Under the pieces are notes generated by a model that saw nothing but the letters and a program-made list of their open reading frames with translations, searched no databases and was not told the DNA's origin. Shown here in pieces: positions 1 to 29,854 of a DNA stretch of 52,209 bases (the stretch's first letter is position 1; every line of letters starts with the position of its first letter). Source of the stretch: Anaerolineales bacterium. GTDB taxonomy: Bacteria > Chloroflexota > Anaerolineae > Anaerolineales > Villigracilaceae. The position numbers were made by a program, and so were the translations under genes. The stretch is taken from contig JAFGSI010000088.1 of NCBI GenBank assembly GCA_016934715.1, positions 1 through 52,209 on the forward strand. Direction: 5' to 3'.

Positions 1-137
1 AAACCAGAATGGGGACGTTCATTGCGGTTTTCCTCCTGTCCAGAGACTGACTGATTGTACCAAATTCCTACTATTTCGATCGCACCCAGATGCATGCCCA
101 TTCGTGATATAACTGGGCGAACAACCCCGGAGGCACC
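1..137. other. Intergenic leader, window edge
   Basis: No gene is supported here. A TATAAC at 108-113 could be the -10 box for the gene starting at 138, but no convincing -35 box is seen. A clear CCGGAGG ribosome binding site lies at 127-133, ahead of the ATG at 138. Confidence 0.4.
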
Positions 138-1193
138 ATGGAGACATCCTTCCCTTTCCTGACCACCCACATCGGCAGCGTTCCCCACCCCACCCCAGCT
201 GGCCTGACCGACAGGCTCGTGTCGCTGCTCGACATCCCCGCCTGGCCGCAGATGGTGCGCCGCAGCTTCCGCGAGAGCATGTACATCCAGTATGCCCCCC
301 TGCTGCCAGGGATCGTAGTGAATGAAGCCAGGCAGAAAATCTCCTTCGACACCCACCAGGATCTGAGCCCAGCCCTGGAAACCTTCTACACGCATATTCT
401 CGAAGACGATGTAGACGCTTTTGCCCTCCAGCCGGATTTTGCTGCCGGGTTCTTCGCAATGCTCGAAAGTTTGCACGCCTCAACCGGGAATGGGGGCAGT
501 TGGGCCAAGGGCCAGGTGACCGGCCCAATCTCGTTCGGGCTGACCGTCACCGATCAGGACCTGCGCGCCAGCCTGTACCATGACATACTGCCCGACGCGA
601 TCGTCAAGAACATGGCCTTCAATGCCCGCTGGCAGGTCCGCCAGCTCAAGGCCGTACGACCGAACGTAATCATCTTCGCCGACGAGCCTTACATGGCCTC
701 CTTCGGCTCGGCCTTCATCAACTTGAGCCGCGAACAAGTATTGCTGTACCTCAACGAGGTCTTTGATGCCATCCACGCGGAAGGCGCCCTGACCGGTGTG
801 CACTGCTGCGCGAACACCGACTGGAGCGTATTGATGGCTGCCCAGGTCGACATCCTCAACCTGGACGCCTACGGCTACATCGAGAACCTGGGACTCTACC
901 CGGAAGAGCTGCGCCTCTTCCTGGATCGCGGCGGCGTGATCGCCTGGGGCCTGGTGCCCAACAACGAGGAGATCCACACCGTCACGCCGCAAGGGTTGGC
1001 CGAGCGTATGCGCCAGGGACTGCAGATGATCTCCGCCAAAGCCCGGGCACGCGGCGTGATCCTCCACCAGGATGATTTCGCTGCCCGCAGCCTGCTCTCC
1101 CCAGCCTGCGGCCTGGGTCCAACCAGCATCGAGGTCGCCGACAAGGTCTTCGAGACCCTGGCAGAGACAGGTCGAATTCTTCAGAGCGGTTAG
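138..1193 (+). CDS. Core MetE-like (cobalamin-independent fold) methionine synthase / corrinoid-linked methyltransferase
   Basis: This 351-residue protein is a UROD/MetE-fold methyltransferase that corresponds only to the catalytic half of MetE. Seen in the sequence: the MetE-type TGPIS motif near residue 137, the DEP motif in FADEPYMASFG, a zinc-ligand HxC in GVHCCAN, an Asp (NLDAY) where MetE has the Glu ligand, and the last Cys in SPACGLGP, matching the PDCGL motif of MetE. Known from the family: such core MetE proteins lack the N-terminal folate-binding half, and in Dehalococcoides one takes its methyl group from the corrinoid iron-sulfur protein of the Wood-Ljungdahl pathway. Inferred: the location beside the CODH/ACS genes suggests the same donor, with homocysteine as acceptor. 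Another corrinoid-dependent methyl transfer is the main alternative. The ATG at 138 follows a CCGGAGG site. Confidence 0.7.
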   Translation: METSFPFLTTHIGSVPHPTPAGLTDRLVSLLDIPAWPQMVRRSFRESMYIQYAPLLPGIVVNEARQKISFDTHQDLSPALETFYTHILEDDVDAFALQPDFAAGFFAMLESLHASTGNGGSWAKGQVTGPISFGLTVTDQDLRASLYHDILPDAIVKNMAFNARWQVRQLKAVRPNVIIFADEPYMASFGSAFINLSREQVLLYLNEVFDAIHAEGALTGVHCCANTDWSVLMAAQVDILNLDAYGYIENLGLYPEELRLFLDRGGVIAWGLVPNNEEIHTVTPQGLAERMRQGLQMISAKARARGVILHQDDFAARSLLSPACGLGPTSIEVADKVFETLAETGRILQSG

Positions 1194-1287
1194 TGGTGTC
1201 TTCGAGGCCGGGGATAGCAAATGGCTATGCGCTATCCGCGAGAAAGCAAAGCCGGAGCAGAGAGAGGTCTGTTCCAGTTGCAGATTC
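1194..1287. terminator. Convergent intergenic region with weak hairpin
   Basis: This gap separates the convergent stops of the methionine synthase-like gene and the cooC gene. It holds an inverted repeat GGATAGC (1212-1218) / GCTATCC (1231-1237) with a 12-nt loop. There is no T-run, so a terminator role is only a suggestion. Confidence 0.25.
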
Positions 1288-2076
1288 TCAGAGGATCTGC
1301 TTCAACAGCGCGGAGACGGCCTGATAAACCGGCGAGTCATCCCCCAGTTCGACCAAAGGCCGGCCGGAGAACTCGAAGGCCGCCAGGTCTTCATCGGCCG
1401 GGATGACCCCCAGCAACGGCAGGTCCAACTTCTCAATGAAGGCCTGCAGTTCCGGGTGGAGTTCACTGTCTGCGGCGCGGTTGACGATCAGATGGGCATT
1501 TTCGATGCGGATGTCCAGTTCATTGCGCATCGCGGCGATCCGCTGAGCAGCGACCAGACCACGCCGGGTTGGGTCGCTGACCACCAACAAGTGCTGCACA
1601 TCGCGGGTCGTGCGCCGGCTGAGATGCTCCATGCCAGCCTCGTTGTCGATTACCACATAAGCATAATGCCTGCTCAGCCCATCGATGACCTCTCGCAAGT
1701 TGTGATTGACGGCGCAGTAGCACCCCTGCCCCTCCCCACGTCCCATGGCGATCAGGTCGAAGCGAGTCCCCTCGGCCATTGACGAGCGGATCTCATATTC
1801 AAGGTATTCCCGTTTCGAAATGCCGCCCGGTAAGGCCCCCATCGCCGCCCCGCTGGCAACCAGTGAACTCTGGACCTTGTCGAGCAGGCCCTCACGGATC
1901 TCGCCGATGGTCCACTCCAGGTCGAGGCCCAGGACCATATTCAGGTTGCTGGACGGGTCGGCGTCGATGGCCAGGATACTGCCCGTCTGGTTCTGGGACA
2001 GGTACTTGATAGCCATCCCGGCAACGGTCGTCTTCCCAACGCCACCCTTGCCAGCCAGAGCAATTGTGGTTGACAT
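1288..2076 (-). CDS. cooC: CooC-type nickel-insertion ATPase (first copy)
   Basis: A 262-residue MinD/Mrp-family P-loop ATPase. The deviant Walker A GKGGVGKTT starts at residue 9, and a CxC pair (C119, C121, in GQGCYCAVN) is present. In CooC proteins this pair binds metal at the dimer interface. Known role of the family: ATP-dependent insertion of nickel into the C-cluster of CO dehydrogenase, or into the A-cluster of acetyl-CoA synthase (AcsF). The gene is the last of a six-gene minus-strand operon and sits 12 nt after a second CooC paralogue. The two probably serve the two different nickel sites, CODH and ACS, but the sequence alone does not say which serves which. The cytoplasmic location is inferred. 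Confidence 0.88.
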   Translation of the reverse strand: MSTTIALAGKGGVGKTTVAGMAIKYLSQNQTGSILAIDADPSSNLNMVLGLDLEWTIGEIREGLLDKVQSSLVASGAAMGALPGGISKREYLEYEIRSSMAEGTRFDLIAMGRGEGQGCYCAVNHNLREVIDGLSRHYAYVVIDNEAGMEHLSRRTTRDVQHLLVVSDPTRRGLVAAQRIAAMRNELDIRIENAHLIVNRAADSELHPELQAFIEKLDLPLLGVIPADEDLAAFEFSGRPLVELGDDSPVYQAVSALLKQIL

Positions 2077-2088
2077 GATCTCTCCTCG

Positions 2089-2862
2089 CTACGTATAAGA
2101 ATCCAATTTTTCCAGGATGGCCCGAGCGGCAGACTGCAGTTCCGGGACGTGATCGTAGACCGGGATCCCCAGCCGGTCCGCTTCCTGGACCTTGAAATCG
2201 GCCGGTAAAAATCCGAGCACGGGCACCCCCGGAGCCTCCGCCTGCAGAAAGCTGGCCTCGTCCTCATCCTGAACCTTGTTGCCGACCAGGTAGATGCGGG
2301 TCAGTCCAATATCGGTGGCCAGCTTCTTGATCTGGGCAGCAGTCCCCAGCGAACGGCGAGTAGGCTCGACCACGACCAGCATGGCATCGACGAAGTCAGC
2401 CGTCGCCCGGCCGAGGTGTTCGACCCCGGCATACATATCGAGCAGGAGCACGTCGTCCTTGCGAAAGAGCAGGTGCGTGAAGAGGGTCTTGAGCATGGCT
2501 GCTTCCGGGCAGATGCAGCCGGAACCGCCCACGTCGACCGATCCCATCTCGAGCAGGCGCACACCCCGATGGACAACACTGAAGCGTTCGGGAATATCGT
2601 CCACGCGCGGGTTGAGGGTGAAGAAACCGCCGACCGTCCCGGGCTTGGCCCCGGTGCGCTCCTCGATCAGGTCGGACATCTCGGAAATCGGGCTCAGCCG
2701 GGCACGCAGCGCTTCCGGGAAACCCAGGGCCCCGGCCAGGCAGGGGCTCGGATCGCCGTCGACCGCCAGCACATCCCGGCCGCAATCGGCGTAGACCTGG
2801 GCCAGCAGGGCGGTCAAGGTGGTCTTGCCCACCCCACCTTTTCCACTGAGCGCGATCTTCAT
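2089..2862 (-). CDS. cooC: CooC/AcsF-type nickel-insertion ATPase (second copy)
   Basis: A 257-residue paralogue of the downstream ATPase. It has Walker A GKGGVGKTT from residue 8 and the dimer-interface CxC pair C116/C118 in GSGCICPE. The two copies are clearly divergent, which argues for different clients rather than a recent duplication. In acetogens and carboxydotrophs one member of the family matures CODH and another (AcsF) matures acetyl-CoA synthase. Its ATG shares one base with the TGA of the upstream radical SAM gene, so the two are translationally coupled. Confidence 0.88.
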   Translation of the reverse strand: MKIALSGKGGVGKTTLTALLAQVYADCGRDVLAVDGDPSPCLAGALGFPEALRARLSPISEMSDLIEERTGAKPGTVGGFFTLNPRVDDIPERFSVVHRGVRLLEMGSVDVGGSGCICPEAAMLKTLFTHLLFRKDDVLLLDMYAGVEHLGRATADFVDAMLVVVEPTRRSLGTAAQIKKLATDIGLTRIYLVGNKVQDEDEASFLQAEAPGVPVLGFLPADFKVQEADRLGIPVYDHVPELQSAARAILEKLDSYT

Positions 2863-3830
2863 CAGCGGCCTCCTGTCGACTGGCCGACTCGTTCTTCCAC
2901 CTGGTAGGTATACCCGTCGGCCAGGGATACCCCGCTCTCGATGGCATTCAACACATACTGGCCGCAGTTGCTACCAATCTGATTCTCCTCCGCCTCACCG
3001 ATGCTGACGATGACCTGGTACCCGGCCTCGGCCAGTCCGCGAGCGACTTCATTCTGCGATGTGGGCAGGTCGGGATCGATGTAGGAGGTCAGTCCATTGC
3101 GCACCGCCTGGCAGGTCGGGTTGACCGGTGTGATCTTGACCAGGTAGTCGGCCGGGTCGAAGTATTCGAGCAGGACAGCCGGATTGGCAGGGGCGCCGGC
3201 GGCGAGGGCGAAGTTGAGGGTGATCTTGCGATCACCGGGTTTGCGGAAATGCCGGCCGTACTCCGCCATGCGGGCAAAGTCCCACTTGCGAACCGGGATC
3301 AGGCGGTCGCGCAAGGTCGGGTCCGTGGTGTGCAGAGAGAACTGGAACTGGAATCGACCCCTCGCGTACAGACGCTCCTTGATCTCGACCAGGCGCTCAA
3401 AGAAACGCTCACTGCCGAGCGGGGCGATGGTCGAGATCGACGGCATCAAACCAGGGGCCGGGTAGCATTGCGGGAGTGCCTCGAGCACATCCAGGACCGC
3501 TGGATTGAGGGCGGGTTCGCCCATCCGGGCAAACTGGATCTTGAATTTGGCCGCCGGCACATGCCCATCCGGATACCAACGCCGGACCATGTAATCGATC
3601 TGGGCCAGGATCTGCTCGGCGGTCGGTTTGCCCTGGTACTGCCCGCCGGCATCGCAAATCTGGCATTTGACCGGGCAGCCAAAAAGGGTCGACACCATTA
3701 ATATCCAGCGTTGGTCGCGGGAGTACGGTGGTTGAAGGGACTCAACGAATTCCAGCAGGCGGCCGTCACCCATGTCGGCCATGTAGACCATGGCCAGGTC
3801 TTCTGTACCGGTAACAGCAAAGACTCTCAT
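2862..3830 (-). CDS. RlmN/Cfr-like radical SAM protein of the CODH/ACS locus
   Basis: A 322-residue radical SAM enzyme. The [4Fe-4S] motif CX3CX2C is at C52, C56 and C59 (GCPVKCQICDAG), followed by a barrel with MGEP-type and FSLHTTD motifs as in RlmN. The C-terminus carries NCGQ with C289, aligning with the methyl-carrying Cys of RlmN (ACGQL). The other essential RlmN Cys, seven residues before the cluster, is Met45 here, so ordinary RlmN chemistry on rRNA is unlikely. It overlaps its neighbours by ATGA/TGATG junctions inside an operon with cooC genes. A role in maturing or modifying the CODH/ACS machinery is inferred, and the substrate is unknown. Confidence 0.75.
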   Translation of the reverse strand: MRVFAVTGTEDLAMVYMADMGDGRLLEFVESLQPPYSRDQRWILMVSTLFGCPVKCQICDAGGQYQGKPTAEQILAQIDYMVRRWYPDGHVPAAKFKIQFARMGEPALNPAVLDVLEALPQCYPAPGLMPSISTIAPLGSERFFERLVEIKERLYARGRFQFQFSLHTTDPTLRDRLIPVRKWDFARMAEYGRHFRKPGDRKITLNFALAAGAPANPAVLLEYFDPADYLVKITPVNPTCQAVRNGLTSYIDPDLPTSQNEVARGLAEAGYQVIVSIGEAEENQIGSNCGQYVLNAIESGVSLADGYTYQVEERVGQSTGGR

Positions 3831-25942: not shown

Positions 25943-28900
25943 ATGCCCGACGATGTGACCCCCATTCGCAGACAATATCTCGAGATCAAACGCCAGTACC
26001 CAGGCACCATCCTGCTCTTCCGCCTGGGTGACTTCTACGAGACCTTCGACCAGGATGCCGAGATCGCCGCCCGCGAACTCGACATCGTCCTGACCTCCCG
26101 TCCGATCGGCAAAGGCGTACGCGCCCCCCTGGCCGGCATCCCCTATCATGCCCTGGACAACTACCTGGCCCGTCTCATCGAAAAGGGCTACCACGTGGCC
26201 ATCTGCGAGCAGGTCGGCGACCAGCCGGTCAAGGGCATTTTCCCACGCAAGGTGGTGCGGGTGGTCACCCCGGGGACGATCGTCGAGCCGGGATTGCTGC
26301 CGGGGGACGGCAACAATTACCTGGCCGCGGTCGTGCTGGATGCCGGCGGCGCTGGCGCTGGAGCACGGGCCGGGATCGCTTATGCCGACATCACCACCGG
26401 CGAGTTCGCCGTCACCGAGATCGAGGCTGCTGACCTGTCACCCGTACGCGCCGAACTGACCCGCCTGCGCCCGGCCGAGATCATCCATCCCGACAACCAG
26501 CCCCTCACCAATGGGCTGGTGGGGCATATCACCCCCTGGGCAGCCTGGCGCTTCGAGCCGGGGAAGAGCCTGGAGGTCCTGCTGGCCCACTTCGGGGCAT
26601 CCACCCTGGAGGGATTTGGGCTGAAGGGGAAGCCGCTCGCAACTCGCGCCGCCGGGAGCCTCCTGCAGTACCTGAAAGAGACCGAGCCAGCCGCCCTTGC
26701 CCTGATGACCGGGCTGCGCGTCTACAGCCTGAACGAGTTCATGACCCTCGACGCCGCCACCCGCCGCAACCTGGAACTGACCGAGACCCTGGGCGGCGAA
26801 ACGAAAGGCTCCCTGCTCGGCGTACTCGACCAGAGCGTCACCCCGATGGGCAAGCGCCTGCTGCGCCAGTGGGTCAGCCAGCCGCTGCTCGACGTGTCCC
26901 GCATCCAGGCCCGCCAGGATGGGGTGGAATACTTCTTCTCCCGCCCGATGCTGCGGGCTGAACTGCGTGCCGCGCTGAAACCGCTGGCTGACCTGGAGCG
27001 CCTGACCAATCGCCTGCTCTCCGGGCATGCCCAGCCGCGTGACCTGGTCGCCCTGCAGGAAACGCTGGTTCGGCTGCCGACCGCGGCACACGCAACCAAT
27101 GACACCGGGCAAAAGACAAGGGACAGATCATCCCTCCTGTCACCCGTCACCCGTCCTCTGAGCCTCTGCGAGGAGGAACTATTCCTGCTTCAATCCGCCA
27201 TCGCTGACGACCCGCCCGCCACGCTGCAGAATACAGGCCTCATCCGCCCCGGCTACTCCGCCGAGCTGGACGGGGTGATCGAAGCCTCGCGGCATGCCAG
27301 AGAATGGATCAACAACCTGGAGCCGGCCGAACGCGAACGGACTGGAATCAAGTCGCTCCGGGTCGGCTACAACAAGGTCTTCGGCTATTACATCGAAGTC
27401 TCGCAGGGCCAGACCGGCAACGTCCCATCCGATTACATCCGCAAGCAGACCCTGGTCAACGCCGAGCGCTACATCACCCCGGAGATGAAGGAGTACGAGA
27501 CGCTCGTCCTGAACGCCGAGGAGCGCATCCACGAGATCGAACTGCGCCTGTTCCGCGAGGTTTGCGCGACACTGGGGAAGTCCGCGGTACGCCTGCTGGA
27601 AACCGCCCGCACCCTGGCCGAACTGGATGTCCTCGCGGCCCTGGCCGAGACGGCCGCCCTGGGCGGGTACGTCCGGCCGGAGGTGCGCGATGACGATGGG
27701 CTCGACATCCGCGACGGCCGCCACCCGGTGGTCGAGCAGAGCCTGGACGGCGAACGCTACGTCCCCAACGACGTGACCTTCGAGAAGGGCGAGGTGGTGC
27801 GGGTCATCACCGGGCCGAACATGAGCGGCAAATGCATCACGGGGGATACCCTGGTCCCCAGTGAACGAGGCCTGCTGCCCATCACGGCTTTCATGCCAGA
27901 AAACGCGGCTCCTGGGCAATTCACTCCCCTGCGCCTGACCATCCAGGGAGAAAAAGGTCCAGCACTGGCCACCCATTTTTATCATGGTGACCGACAGCGC
28001 ACCATTCGGGTAAAGACCAGGCTCGGCTTTGAGATCGAAGGAACGCCCGAACATCGTATCTGGGTCCGCCGGCCGGATGGAACAGAAGGCTGGCAACCGC
28101 TCGGGCAGATCGCCCGAGAGGATACTGTTGTTATCGCGCCGGGAGCAAATTTATGGGGGACCCAAACGAAGATCGATTTCGTAATGCCAGGACATCACGG
28201 CAGTCAAAGACCGTATCGCCTGCCAGCCGAGCTCAACCCCGATCTCGCCTACCTCATCGGCCTGCTGGTCGGCGACGGGACACGGATCGACAAGACCGCC
28301 ATCCATCTCTCTACCGCTGATGAATTCATCGCCAATGAGTTCAAAAGGGTAATCACAGAGCAATTTGGATATCCTGTCCAACCAAAACCGAATGAAAAAG
28401 ATTTCACGATCAGCAGCAAGGAGATCCGTGAGTTCCTTGCCCATCTCGGGCTGGGGTTTGTTGAAGCAGCAGAGAAGCGCGTGCCAACAAGCGTCATGCG
28501 CGCACCGAAAGCGATCGTCGCTGCTTTTCTTCAGGGTCTTTTTGACAGCGCCGGAGATGTTGATGCAAAGCATGGAAACGTAACCTTCTCAACCGCCTCC
28601 GGTCAAATGGCACGCCAGGTTCACCTGCTCCTGCTCAACCTGGGCATCCTCGGTTCCCTGCATCTCAAAAAGACCACGTCGCCTCCCGGCTACTCCGTGG
28701 CTCTTTCTGGTGAAAACGCCATTCGATTTCACGTGGAAGTTGGCTTCCGCCTCCCGTGGAAACGAGAGCGTTCCAGACTTGCTTCCCATCTGCGCATGCC
28801 CAATCTCGGCGGAATCCCTTATCTGACTGCTACGCTCAAGACGGTCCAGGCTCGCATTGACCAAACAGGGGGAAACCCTGTTGCGTTAAAGTACAACAAG

Positions 28901-29854
28901 CGCGTCAACCGCATCGTCAACCCGTACCTGCCTACCAACCGGCGCTTGTCCTATGCACAGCTCGCCGAGCTGGTGGCCTACTGCGGGCAAAGCGGTGCGC
29001 CTGCCCCCGAGCTCAAGGCCATCCTGGAAAACCGTTTTTTCTACGACAAGATCACGGATATCGAGCAGGGCGAGGCGAATGTCTACGATCTCTGTGTGCC
29101 CGAGGGCCACGCCTTCCTCGCCAACGGCTTTATCAGCCATAATTCCACTTACCTGCGCCAGGCGGCGCTGATCGCCCTGATGGCGCAGATGGGGGCCTTC
29201 GTTCCGGCTGCAACGGCCAGGATCGGGCTGGTCGACCGCATCTTCACCCGCATCGGCGCCCAGGACGAGATTCACGCCGGGCAGTCCACGTTCATGGTCG
29301 AAATGATCGAGGCGGCCAATATCCTCCACCATGCCACCGCCCGCTCCCTGCTGATCCTGGACGAGATCGGACGCGGCACCAGCACCTATGACGGGGTTTC
29401 GATCGCCTGGGCGGTGGTCGAGCACATCCACAACCATCCACAGTTGCGCGCCAAGACCCTCTTTGCCACTCATTATCACGAGTTGACCCAGCTGGCCGAA
29501 TTATTGCCCGGTGTGCGCAATTACAACGTAGCGGTAAGCGAGGCCGACAACCGGGTCATCTTTCTGCACAAGATCATCCCCGGTGGTGCCGACCGTTCCT
29601 ACGGCATCCACGTGGCCCAGTTGGCCGGCCTCCCCCGTCCGGTCGTCCAGCGCGCAAGCGAGATCATGGCCGAACTGGAAAAGTCATCCGGCCAGGCCGT
29701 GCAGACCAACCCGCACGCCGCGCAACAGGCCGCCCTGTTCCCCGAGACCAGCCCCCTGCTGGAGGAATTGAAGGCCCTGGATATGAACAGCCTCTCGCCG
29801 ATCGAGGCGCTCAACAAATTGTACGAGTGGCAGAAGAAATATTCCGGGCATTGA
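25943..29854 (+). CDS. mutS: DNA mismatch repair protein MutS interrupted by an intein
   Basis: A precursor of 1303 residues. Removing the intein (residues 631-1067) leaves an 866-residue MutS of ordinary size. Host domains: mismatch-recognition domain with GDFYETF, connector, lever/clamp with the RTGIKSLRVGYNKVFGYYIEV motif, and the ABC-type ATPase. The Walker A loop GPNMSGK|ST is split by the intein between Lys and Ser, so the ATPase cannot work before splicing. Walker B LILDEIGRGTSTYDG and THYHEL are intact. A short Ser/Thr/Arg-rich stretch of about 20 residues near residues 385-405 is unusual for the lever domain. No mutL is adjacent. Confidence 0.96.
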   Translation: MPDDVTPIRRQYLEIKRQYPGTILLFRLGDFYETFDQDAEIAARELDIVLTSRPIGKGVRAPLAGIPYHALDNYLARLIEKGYHVAICEQVGDQPVKGIFPRKVVRVVTPGTIVEPGLLPGDGNNYLAAVVLDAGGAGAGARAGIAYADITTGEFAVTEIEAADLSPVRAELTRLRPAEIIHPDNQPLTNGLVGHITPWAAWRFEPGKSLEVLLAHFGASTLEGFGLKGKPLATRAAGSLLQYLKETEPAALALMTGLRVYSLNEFMTLDAATRRNLELTETLGGETKGSLLGVLDQSVTPMGKRLLRQWVSQPLLDVSRIQARQDGVEYFFSRPMLRAELRAALKPLADLERLTNRLLSGHAQPRDLVALQETLVRLPTAAHATNDTGQKTRDRSSLLSPVTRPLSLCEEELFLLQSAIADDPPATLQNTGLIRPGYSAELDGVIEASRHAREWINNLEPAERERTGIKSLRVGYNKVFGYYIEVSQGQTGNVPSDYIRKQTLVNAERYITPEMKEYETLVLNAEERIHEIELRLFREVCATLGKSAVRLLETARTLAELDVLAALAETAALGGYVRPEVRDDDGLDIRDGRHPVVEQSLDGERYVPNDVTFEKGEVVRVITGPNMSGKCITGDTLVPSERGLLPITAFMPENAAPGQFTPLRLTIQGEKGPALATHFYHGDRQRTIRVKTRLGFEIEGTPEHRIWVRRPDGTEGWQPLGQIAREDTVVIAPGANLWGTQTKIDFVMPGHHGSQRPYRLPAELNPDLAYLIGLLVGDGTRIDKTAIHLSTADEFIANEFKRVITEQFGYPVQPKPNEKDFTISSKEIREFLAHLGLGFVEAAEKRVPTSVMRAPKAIVAAFLQGLFDSAGDVDAKHGNVTFSTASGQMARQVHLLLLNLGILGSLHLKKTTSPPGYSVALSGENAIRFHVEVGFRLPWKRERSRLASHLRMPNLGGIPYLTATLKTVQARIDQTGGNPVALKYNKRVNRIVNPYLPTNRRLSYAQLAELVAYCGQSGAPAPELKAILENRFFYDKITDIEQGEANVYDLCVPEGHAFLANGFISHNSTYLRQAALIALMAQMGAFVPAATARIGLVDRIFTRIGAQDEIHAGQSTFMVEMIEAANILHHATARSLLILDEIGRGTSTYDGVSIAWAVVEHIHNHPQLRAKTLFATHYHELTQLAELLPGVRNYNVAVSEADNRVIFLHKIIPGGADRSYGIHVAQLAGLPRPVVQRASEIMAELEKSSGQAVQTNPHAAQQAALFPETSPLLEELKALDMNSLSPIEALNKLYEWQKKYSGH
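27833..29143 (+). mobile_element. MutS intein with degenerate LAGLIDADG homing endonuclease
   Basis: An in-frame 437-residue intein. Splicing residues all look present: Cys1 (CITGDTLV), block B T71-P-E-H74, block F His426 (PEGHAFLANGF), and C-terminal His436-Asn437 followed by extein Ser. The endonuclease part has LAGLIDADG motif 1 LIGLLVGDG (141-149, acidic D148 present). Motif 2 is LQGLFDSAG (233-241), where the acidic residue of position 8 is Ala240. Splicing should be active. Double-strand cleavage is doubtful because one of the two metal-binding acids is missing. The insertion point is the most conserved part of the gene, the P-loop codons, as is usual for inteins. By eye the base use is less GC-rich than the flanking mutS. 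Confidence 0.93.

Follow-up and report, generated by a model that had tools for sequence, protein, structure and literature searches.

How could a mismatch repair protein work when the codons of its ATP-binding loop are parted by several hundred others, and how did these arrive there? The question is raised by a mutS gene in contig JAFGSI010000088.1 (assembly GCA_016934715.1) of an Anaerolineales bacterium of the family Villigracilaceae (Chloroflexota), positions 1 to 52,209 of which, the whole stretch analyzed, are called the window below. Judged by its sequence and predicted fold, the insert in this gene is a class-1 intein, i.e. a Hint splicing domain that carries an inserted LAGLIDADG endonuclease, and we consider it very likely that it was once a homing parasite, lodged in the Walker A codons of chromosomal mutS, and is now in a phase of probable decay.

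An intein within the Walker A loop, between Lys and Ser

The mutS gene (MutS1) forms a single open frame of 1303 residues, in which the Pfam domains MutS I to V all score above their cut-offs; both the FYE motif, which we take to be the one that binds mismatches, and Walker B are present in the extein. The intein codons are free of stops over 437 residues, from Cys1 to the terminal His-Asn, and lie between Lys and Ser of Walker A (ITGPNMSGK/STYLRQ; Table 1). A first-pass annotation of the same DNA had described this anatomy as a 437-residue in-frame insert at GPNMSGK/ST with an initial Cys, TxxH, block F, a terminal HN and Ser at +1, and each of these elements proved exact when the sequence was read again; likewise, in silico removal of codons 27833-29143 yields the MutS of 866 residues that it had given.

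Table 1. Features of the intein-bearing mutS gene (window coordinates; residue numbers are those of the intein)
Feature	Position	Strand	Basis
mutS (MutS1), intein-bearing precursor, 1303 residues plus stop	25943..29854	+	open reading frame; Pfam MutS_I to MutS_V; PRK05399/TIGR01070
N-extein, 630 residues, ending in GPNMSGK (Walker A through Lys)	25943..27832	+	
Intein, 437 residues, Hint splicing domain with inserted LAGLIDADG endonuclease (predicted)	27833..29143	+	family models, structure comparison
Block A, nucleophile Cys1 (Cys in 32/32 MutS inteins)	27833..27871	+	alignment
Block B, TxxH = TPEH, residues 71-74 (Thr and His in 32/32)	28043..28054	+	alignment
LAGLIDADG motif 1 (block C), AYLIGLLVGDGT, catalytic Asp148 present	28247..28282	+	alignment
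LAGLIDADG motif 2 (block E), AFLQGLFDSAGDV; codon 240 (28550-28552) GCC = Ala	28523..28561	+	alignment
Helical segment, about residues 329-402	28817..29038	+	alignment, AlphaFold model
Block F, ending in ANGFISHN, His436-Asn437 last	29075..29143	+	TIGR01443, alignment
C-extein, 236 residues, Ser+1 first (STYLRQ), Walker B included	29144..29854	+	Pfam, excision in silico

Class-1 inteins are recognized by a nucleophile at position 1, a TxxH motif, a His-Asn end and Cys, Ser or Thr at +1. The insert has C1, T71, H74, H436, N437 and Ser at +1, and lies in frame in a conserved gene that has intein-free homologues. When its 437 residues were searched against family models, as the first-pass annotation had proposed, both intein and LAGLIDADG models were matched: Intein_splicing (PF14890, E 8e-11, above cut-off) and LAGLIDADG_3 (PF14528, E 4e-19) in Pfam, and TIGR01443 (intein_Cterm, E 5e-6) with several models of intein-bearing proteins in NCBIfam, where no model of an intein-bearing MutS was matched. 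Among solved structures, VMA, PI-PkoII and GyrA inteins were found by sequence (best E 2e-17). The E values against Pfam, TIGR01443 and the solved inteins rule out a chance match.

An AlphaFold model of the intein, made with a 38-row alignment (the window copy, 30 of the 31 other MutS inteins described below, and seven other inteins; L064, with its 118-residue insert, was omitted), has a mean predicted local distance difference test score (pLDDT) of 90.3 and a predicted template modeling score (pTM) of 0.91. The best match in both Foldseek and VIA-align, the latter over 50 listed entries, was the TliVMA intein (VIA-align Z 34.4 for 7qsu, 331 residues at 3.3 A, and 33.8 for 7qss, 398 residues), followed in VIA-align by 2cw7 (PI-PkoII) and the PhoVMA, PI-PfuI and GyrA inteins. 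The model aligns with solved inteins from residue 1 to residue 437, so that the Hint fold spans both ends of the insert, and I-DmoI aligns with its inner part (Z 16.9, 165 residues). A LAGLIDADG fold is present in the model; of the two motif positions that, by analogy with PI-SceI and I-CreI, are taken to be catalytic, 148 is Asp and 240 is Ala.

Distribution and history of the MutS intein

A scan of species genomes gave 31 other MutS copies with the same junction among the 80 loci retained out of 81 confirmed. They fall in seven phyla, namely Chloroflexota (17, five of them genomes of the window family), Pseudomonadota (5, in Parabeggiatoa and Chromatium okenii), Poribacteria (3), Armatimonadota (3), Latescibacterota (1), Bipolaricaulota (1) and that of one Methanophagales archaeon. 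Each is flanked by MutS sequence at either end within a single contig, L063 by only 12 C-extein residues. The scan was a single run with short peptide patterns, which will have missed copies, and since MutS hosts were recognized by the P-loop flank or junction, inteins at other MutS sites could have gone unnoticed.

Across the 32 copies, Cys1, Thr71, His74, His436 and Asn437 are invariant, and so is Ser at +1 (32/32 each). The endonuclease positions vary: residue 240 is Asp in 26 of 32, and 25 have Asp at both catalytic positions, one or both being absent in the window copy, L041, L055, L057, L062, L064 and L070. Since its second catalytic Asp position is Ala (codon GCC), the window endonuclease is predicted to be dead and this copy is probably immobile. 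The helical segment at about residues 329-402 is wholly or mostly missing in four copies (L061, L063, L067 and L070). Chromatium okenii has the MutS intein in a long form of 436 residues (L060) and a short form of 364 (L067), the latter missing about 73 residues C-terminal to the endonuclease motifs, and the Parabeggiatoa copy L064 carries a 118-residue insertion of repeated peptide units near residue 25.

Presence is patchy among close relatives. In the window family, at least 6 of 152 genomes have the intein at the MutS site, and a MutS1 stretch was found in 131, some interrupted by contig ends. Fifteen relatives were hand-picked, mostly as the nearest by MutS score, out of 125 family genomes in which MutS1 was found without a strong match to the intein; the site is empty in 14, including G056 of the window genus, and the fifteenth (L139) stops short of it. 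The comparison that the first-pass annotation had asked for thus yielded intein-free alleles, and one outcome it had named as fatal to its reading, the same segment in all close relatives with no splicing residues, is the opposite of what was seen, as near relatives lack the segment and copies elsewhere keep these residues. On a MutS tree of 22 rows (8 intein-bearing and 14 intein-free), presence takes six changes, five of them forced by well-supported branches, and its clustering does not exceed that of randomly shuffled labels (mean 6.8 changes). G035, taken at one point for a carrier, was rejected; its site is empty and its 1200-residue frame merely long. In a broader match, 48 of the 152 family genomes hit the MutS intein at E 1e-10 or better, and 13 non-MutS flanks from this set, the window genome's included, are all ribonucleotide reductase-like by motif.

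In a sample of the phylum, strong intein relatives occur in at least 22 of 400 genomes, such counts being lower bounds because a maximum of four candidates was scored per genome. Apart from the window and its congener G055, 20 of 21 new loci were read (L161 was left out), and three have MutS flanks at the same P-loop: L142, which shows both junctions and may be identical with L044, as well as L143 and L149, in which the match stops before the C-terminal junction. In ten of the 20 flanks (L146, L147, L148, L150-L154, L157 and L160), the intein interrupts a kinase of PrkA-like type at EF(V/I)E(M/I)LK/C, with Cys at +1 in all nine matches that reach the C-terminal junction; Pfam confirmed PrkA for L146 only. 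Among viral contigs, the intein profile found seven loci, none flanked by MutS-like sequence, and the best 80 of 316 stretches found with the MutS domain V profile all have GK directly before the C-terminal side, i.e. no intein. In many IMG/VR contigs (L163-L242) mutS lies near one contig end (e.g. contig_range 1-3211), and these may be prophage edges.

The intein alignment took in 64 of 87 loci and the window copy, 23 partial or other-host loci being omitted; a script shifted the starts of L064 and L065 to the P-loop, and L118 was removed ahead of tree building, which left 64 rows. In the resulting tree, the 32 MutS copies form one clade (support 98/97), separate from FtsH inteins (17 rows, 99/94) and DnaB inteins (3 rows, 97/94). 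The MutS, FtsH, DnaB, UvrD, PhoH and SNF2 rows, together with L071, whose host has no Pfam match, lie on the same side of an 86/91 branch, and RuvB inteins group weakly with those of ribonucleotide reductase, which are not in P-loops. The FtsH, DnaB, RuvB, UvrD, PhoH and SNF2 hosts, checked with Pfam for one or two members each, all have the intein at GK/T of the P-loop. Related inteins therefore share the Walker A position in several unrelated ATPases, mostly with one lineage per host. The 17 FtsH-type proteins (L073-L082, L084-L088, L090 and L093) come mostly from bins of candidate phyla, FtsH domains having been checked for L073 and L078. The PhoH-like protein with a related P-loop intein (L066) is in a bin titled Klebsiella pneumoniae, a title that may be a binning label.

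Inteins and their MutS hosts differ in phylogeny. A quick extein tree puts the Chloroflexota MutS together (L052 and L040 are partial in the extein trees, the locus edge limits the window N-extein to 500 residues, and the C-extein of L063 is represented by just 12), and constraining the Chloroflexota inteins to one clade is 86 log units worse, with a p value of 8.95e-12 in the approximately unbiased test (p-AU). On these phylogenetic grounds, the conflict implies that the MutS intein has moved between phyla and would be a mobile allele common to several of them. Identity is higher in the intein than in the extein between Latescibacterota L042 and Chloroflexota L043 (72.8% versus 50.5%), between Bipolaricaulota L051 and Chloroflexota L053 (56.3% versus 43.9%), and between the two Chromatium okenii strains (L060 and L067, 84.9% versus 76.7%), which is the pattern that homing into a resident mutS would give.

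Several observations, however, weigh against this picture or limit it. The Chloroflexota grouping was chosen for the test after the intein tree had been seen, and a single clade of Poribacteria inteins is compatible with the data (p-AU 0.125). Because metagenome bins make up most of the hosts, contig errors may occur, in spite of the MutS flanks on single contigs. In only 213 of 496 pairs does identity in the intein reach that in the extein, the intein being more diverged elsewhere, and no clear co-conversion tract was found beyond the conserved P-loop by DNA identity in nine pairs. The window copy itself differs from its five nearest copies more in the intein (54-61% identity) than in the extein (66-83%); for the three nearest, the values are 57-61% and 81-83%, and a similar contrast is seen between the close hosts L058 and L064 (52.4% and 82.1%). 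Such divergence of the window intein fits relaxed constraint after endonuclease loss, or separate acquisition. Selection on the intein is poorly measurable because synonymous divergence (dS, NG86 method) is undefined for six of the 15 pairs, with values of 1.2-4.0 for the remaining nine; the ratio of nonsynonymous to synonymous divergence (dN/dS) in the two defined window pairs, 0.14 and 0.16, is unreliable.

Mismatch repair and alternative readings

The window genome (4.09 Mb, 97.76% complete) has two MutS_V matches, of which the second, on contig C12, is MutS2-like as read by eye from the DNA (GPNTGGKT P-loop, Smr-like end), and at this completeness the MutS_V search found no further MutS1. 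MutL is present on contig C27. Five distant intein-bearing genomes have a single strong MutS_V match each, in frames of 1277-1407 residues; three of them have a second, weaker match (109-114 bits, frames of 788-827 residues) that we take as MutS2. Since the sole MutS1 found carries the intein, mismatch repair in this bacterium should need intein splicing. The first-pass annotation had stated this dependence as a fact; its premises stand, with the intein in the only MutS1 found and MutL in the genome, and the dependence itself is an expectation drawn from them. Further intein loci of the same genome are L002 and L243 on C31, L003 on C70 and L005 on C84; they comprise at least two inteins in a ribonucleotide reductase frame of 1713 residues, at least one in GyrB, and a short DnaB intein at a non-P-loop site, these hosts being named by motifs.

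We propose that mutS is translated as the 1303-residue precursor, from which the Hint domain would excise itself autocatalytically by means of Cys1, TxxH, His436-Asn437 and Ser+1, Lys630 being joined to Ser to give MutS of 866 residues. Unspliced precursor should lack ATPase activity because its ATP-binding loop is split between Lys and Ser. In the past, the LAGLIDADG endonuclease probably spread the intein by cleaving mutS alleles that lacked it, at the conserved codons of the P-loop, and the window copy is probably in the decay phase of the homing cycle. Its splicing would make such a parasite tolerable to the host, and loss would be hindered, as MutS is preserved only by continued splicing or by an exact deletion that restores the Walker A codons.

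It has to be asked whether the intein has instead been co-opted as a switch, with splicing set by redox state, DNA damage or another signal and with MutS activity and mutation rate made conditional, which we regard as improbable. The endonuclease is probably dead in the window copy and in six more of the 32, yet all splicing residues are kept, and an insertion in the ATP site would be expected to inactivate the precursor; furthermore, conditional splicing is described for other inteins in passages of PMC8987985 and PMC5874633, the latter giving a disulfide between the two splice-junction Cys of the P. abyssi PolII intein. However, the splicing residues say nothing on regulation because any working MutS needs them, and patchy presence beside intein-free neighbors argues against a conserved regulatory role. 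The first-pass annotation had raised redox- or stress-conditional splicing, which found no support here: position +1 is Ser, and the extein Cys of the window MutS are at 88, 409 and 541 of 866 only, none at or near the junction, so a disulfide between Cys1 and a neighboring extein Cys cannot form. Within the intein, Cys384 (conserved in all 26 copies that have a residue at this position) or Cys421 (in the window only) might pair with Cys1. An endonuclease-less intein might also act as a post-translational gate, stress slowing splicing and so leading to a build-up of MutS with a split Walker A loop and to a transient mutator state, and to this version we give still less credence.

Two further readings would deny that a working MutS is spliced out. 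If a non-splicing intein had inactivated mutS, the gene would be on its way to loss and the strain a permanent mutator. The greater divergence of the window intein than of the extein from the nearest copies and the damaged endonuclease motif would agree with this, but the MutS and intein frames are fully open, MutS I-V score high, and the FYE motif, Walker B, the splicing residues and MutL are all in place, on which grounds we rejected a dead mutS as very unlikely. Rejected too, and scarcely credible, is the reading of the insert as a structured extra domain of MutS that is never spliced out. In favor of this reading, splicing is itself deduced from anatomy; still, the insert matches intein-specific models and has the intein fold, Cys1, TxxH, HN and Ser+1 are found in 32/32 copies, and it splits two Walker A residues at a site that is otherwise normal in 14 intein-free relatives. 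A class-1 intein, probably in decay, is thus the reading that we retain.

Significance and relation to known inteins

These results add mutS, a gene with strong influence on mutation rate, to those invaded by inteins in bacteria and archaea, and they offer phylogenetic evidence that one mutS intein allele may have moved between phyla. One genus holds both mutS alleles with the intein and alleles without it, and Chromatium okenii LaCa and DSM 169 are sequenced carriers; because of this mixed genus and these two carriers, any cost or control exerted by an active-site intein can be tested by a mutation-rate assay.

The element is of a known kind, and mutS as its cellular host gene is unreported as far as searched: among the matches listed from open-licence full texts, a scope outside which supplements and the main prokaryotic survey lie, no mention of a MutS intein from bacteria or archaea came up. 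A review table of some replication and repair hosts of inteins, as excerpted from PMC5874633, does not include MutS, and passages of a Thiomargarita paper (PMC4853749) give only DnaB, DnaE and ribonucleotide reductase as intein hosts. Table 1 of PMC5784728 lists two MutS-like inteins for Mimiviridae, and a passage of PMC12292046 restates those of nucleocytoviruses; they have a MutS-family host in common with the present intein, whereas their hosts are giant viruses, and the likeness rests on the description in PMC5784728. According to a section of PMC1654191, mitochondrial mutS homologues of plants and soft corals are fused to homing-endonuclease domains, which again brings together a MutS relative and an endonuclease of mobile type, but as a fusion instead of an intein that would be spliced out.

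As to the site, Lys/Ser or Lys/Thr of the P-loop is a classic one for inteins, e.g. that of TerL1-a of mycobacteriophages as described in part of PMC5050341, where the host is a phage terminase and not MutS. The inteins of FtsH, DnaB, RuvB, UvrD and PhoH, which come from the genome scan that gave the MutS copies, resemble the MutS intein in their P-loop position (GK/T), length and motifs and belong to separate lineages. Archaeal VMA inteins are also inserted in the Walker A loop. They are the best solved relatives by sequence (TliVMA, 7qss and 7qsu; PhoVMA, 7qst), with TliVMA first by fold, and they likewise combine Hint and LAGLIDADG domains; they differ in their host, the A subunit of the V-type ATPase, in sequence (18-25% identity in the fold alignments), and in the second motif of the endonuclease, which in the window MutS intein is without its Asp.

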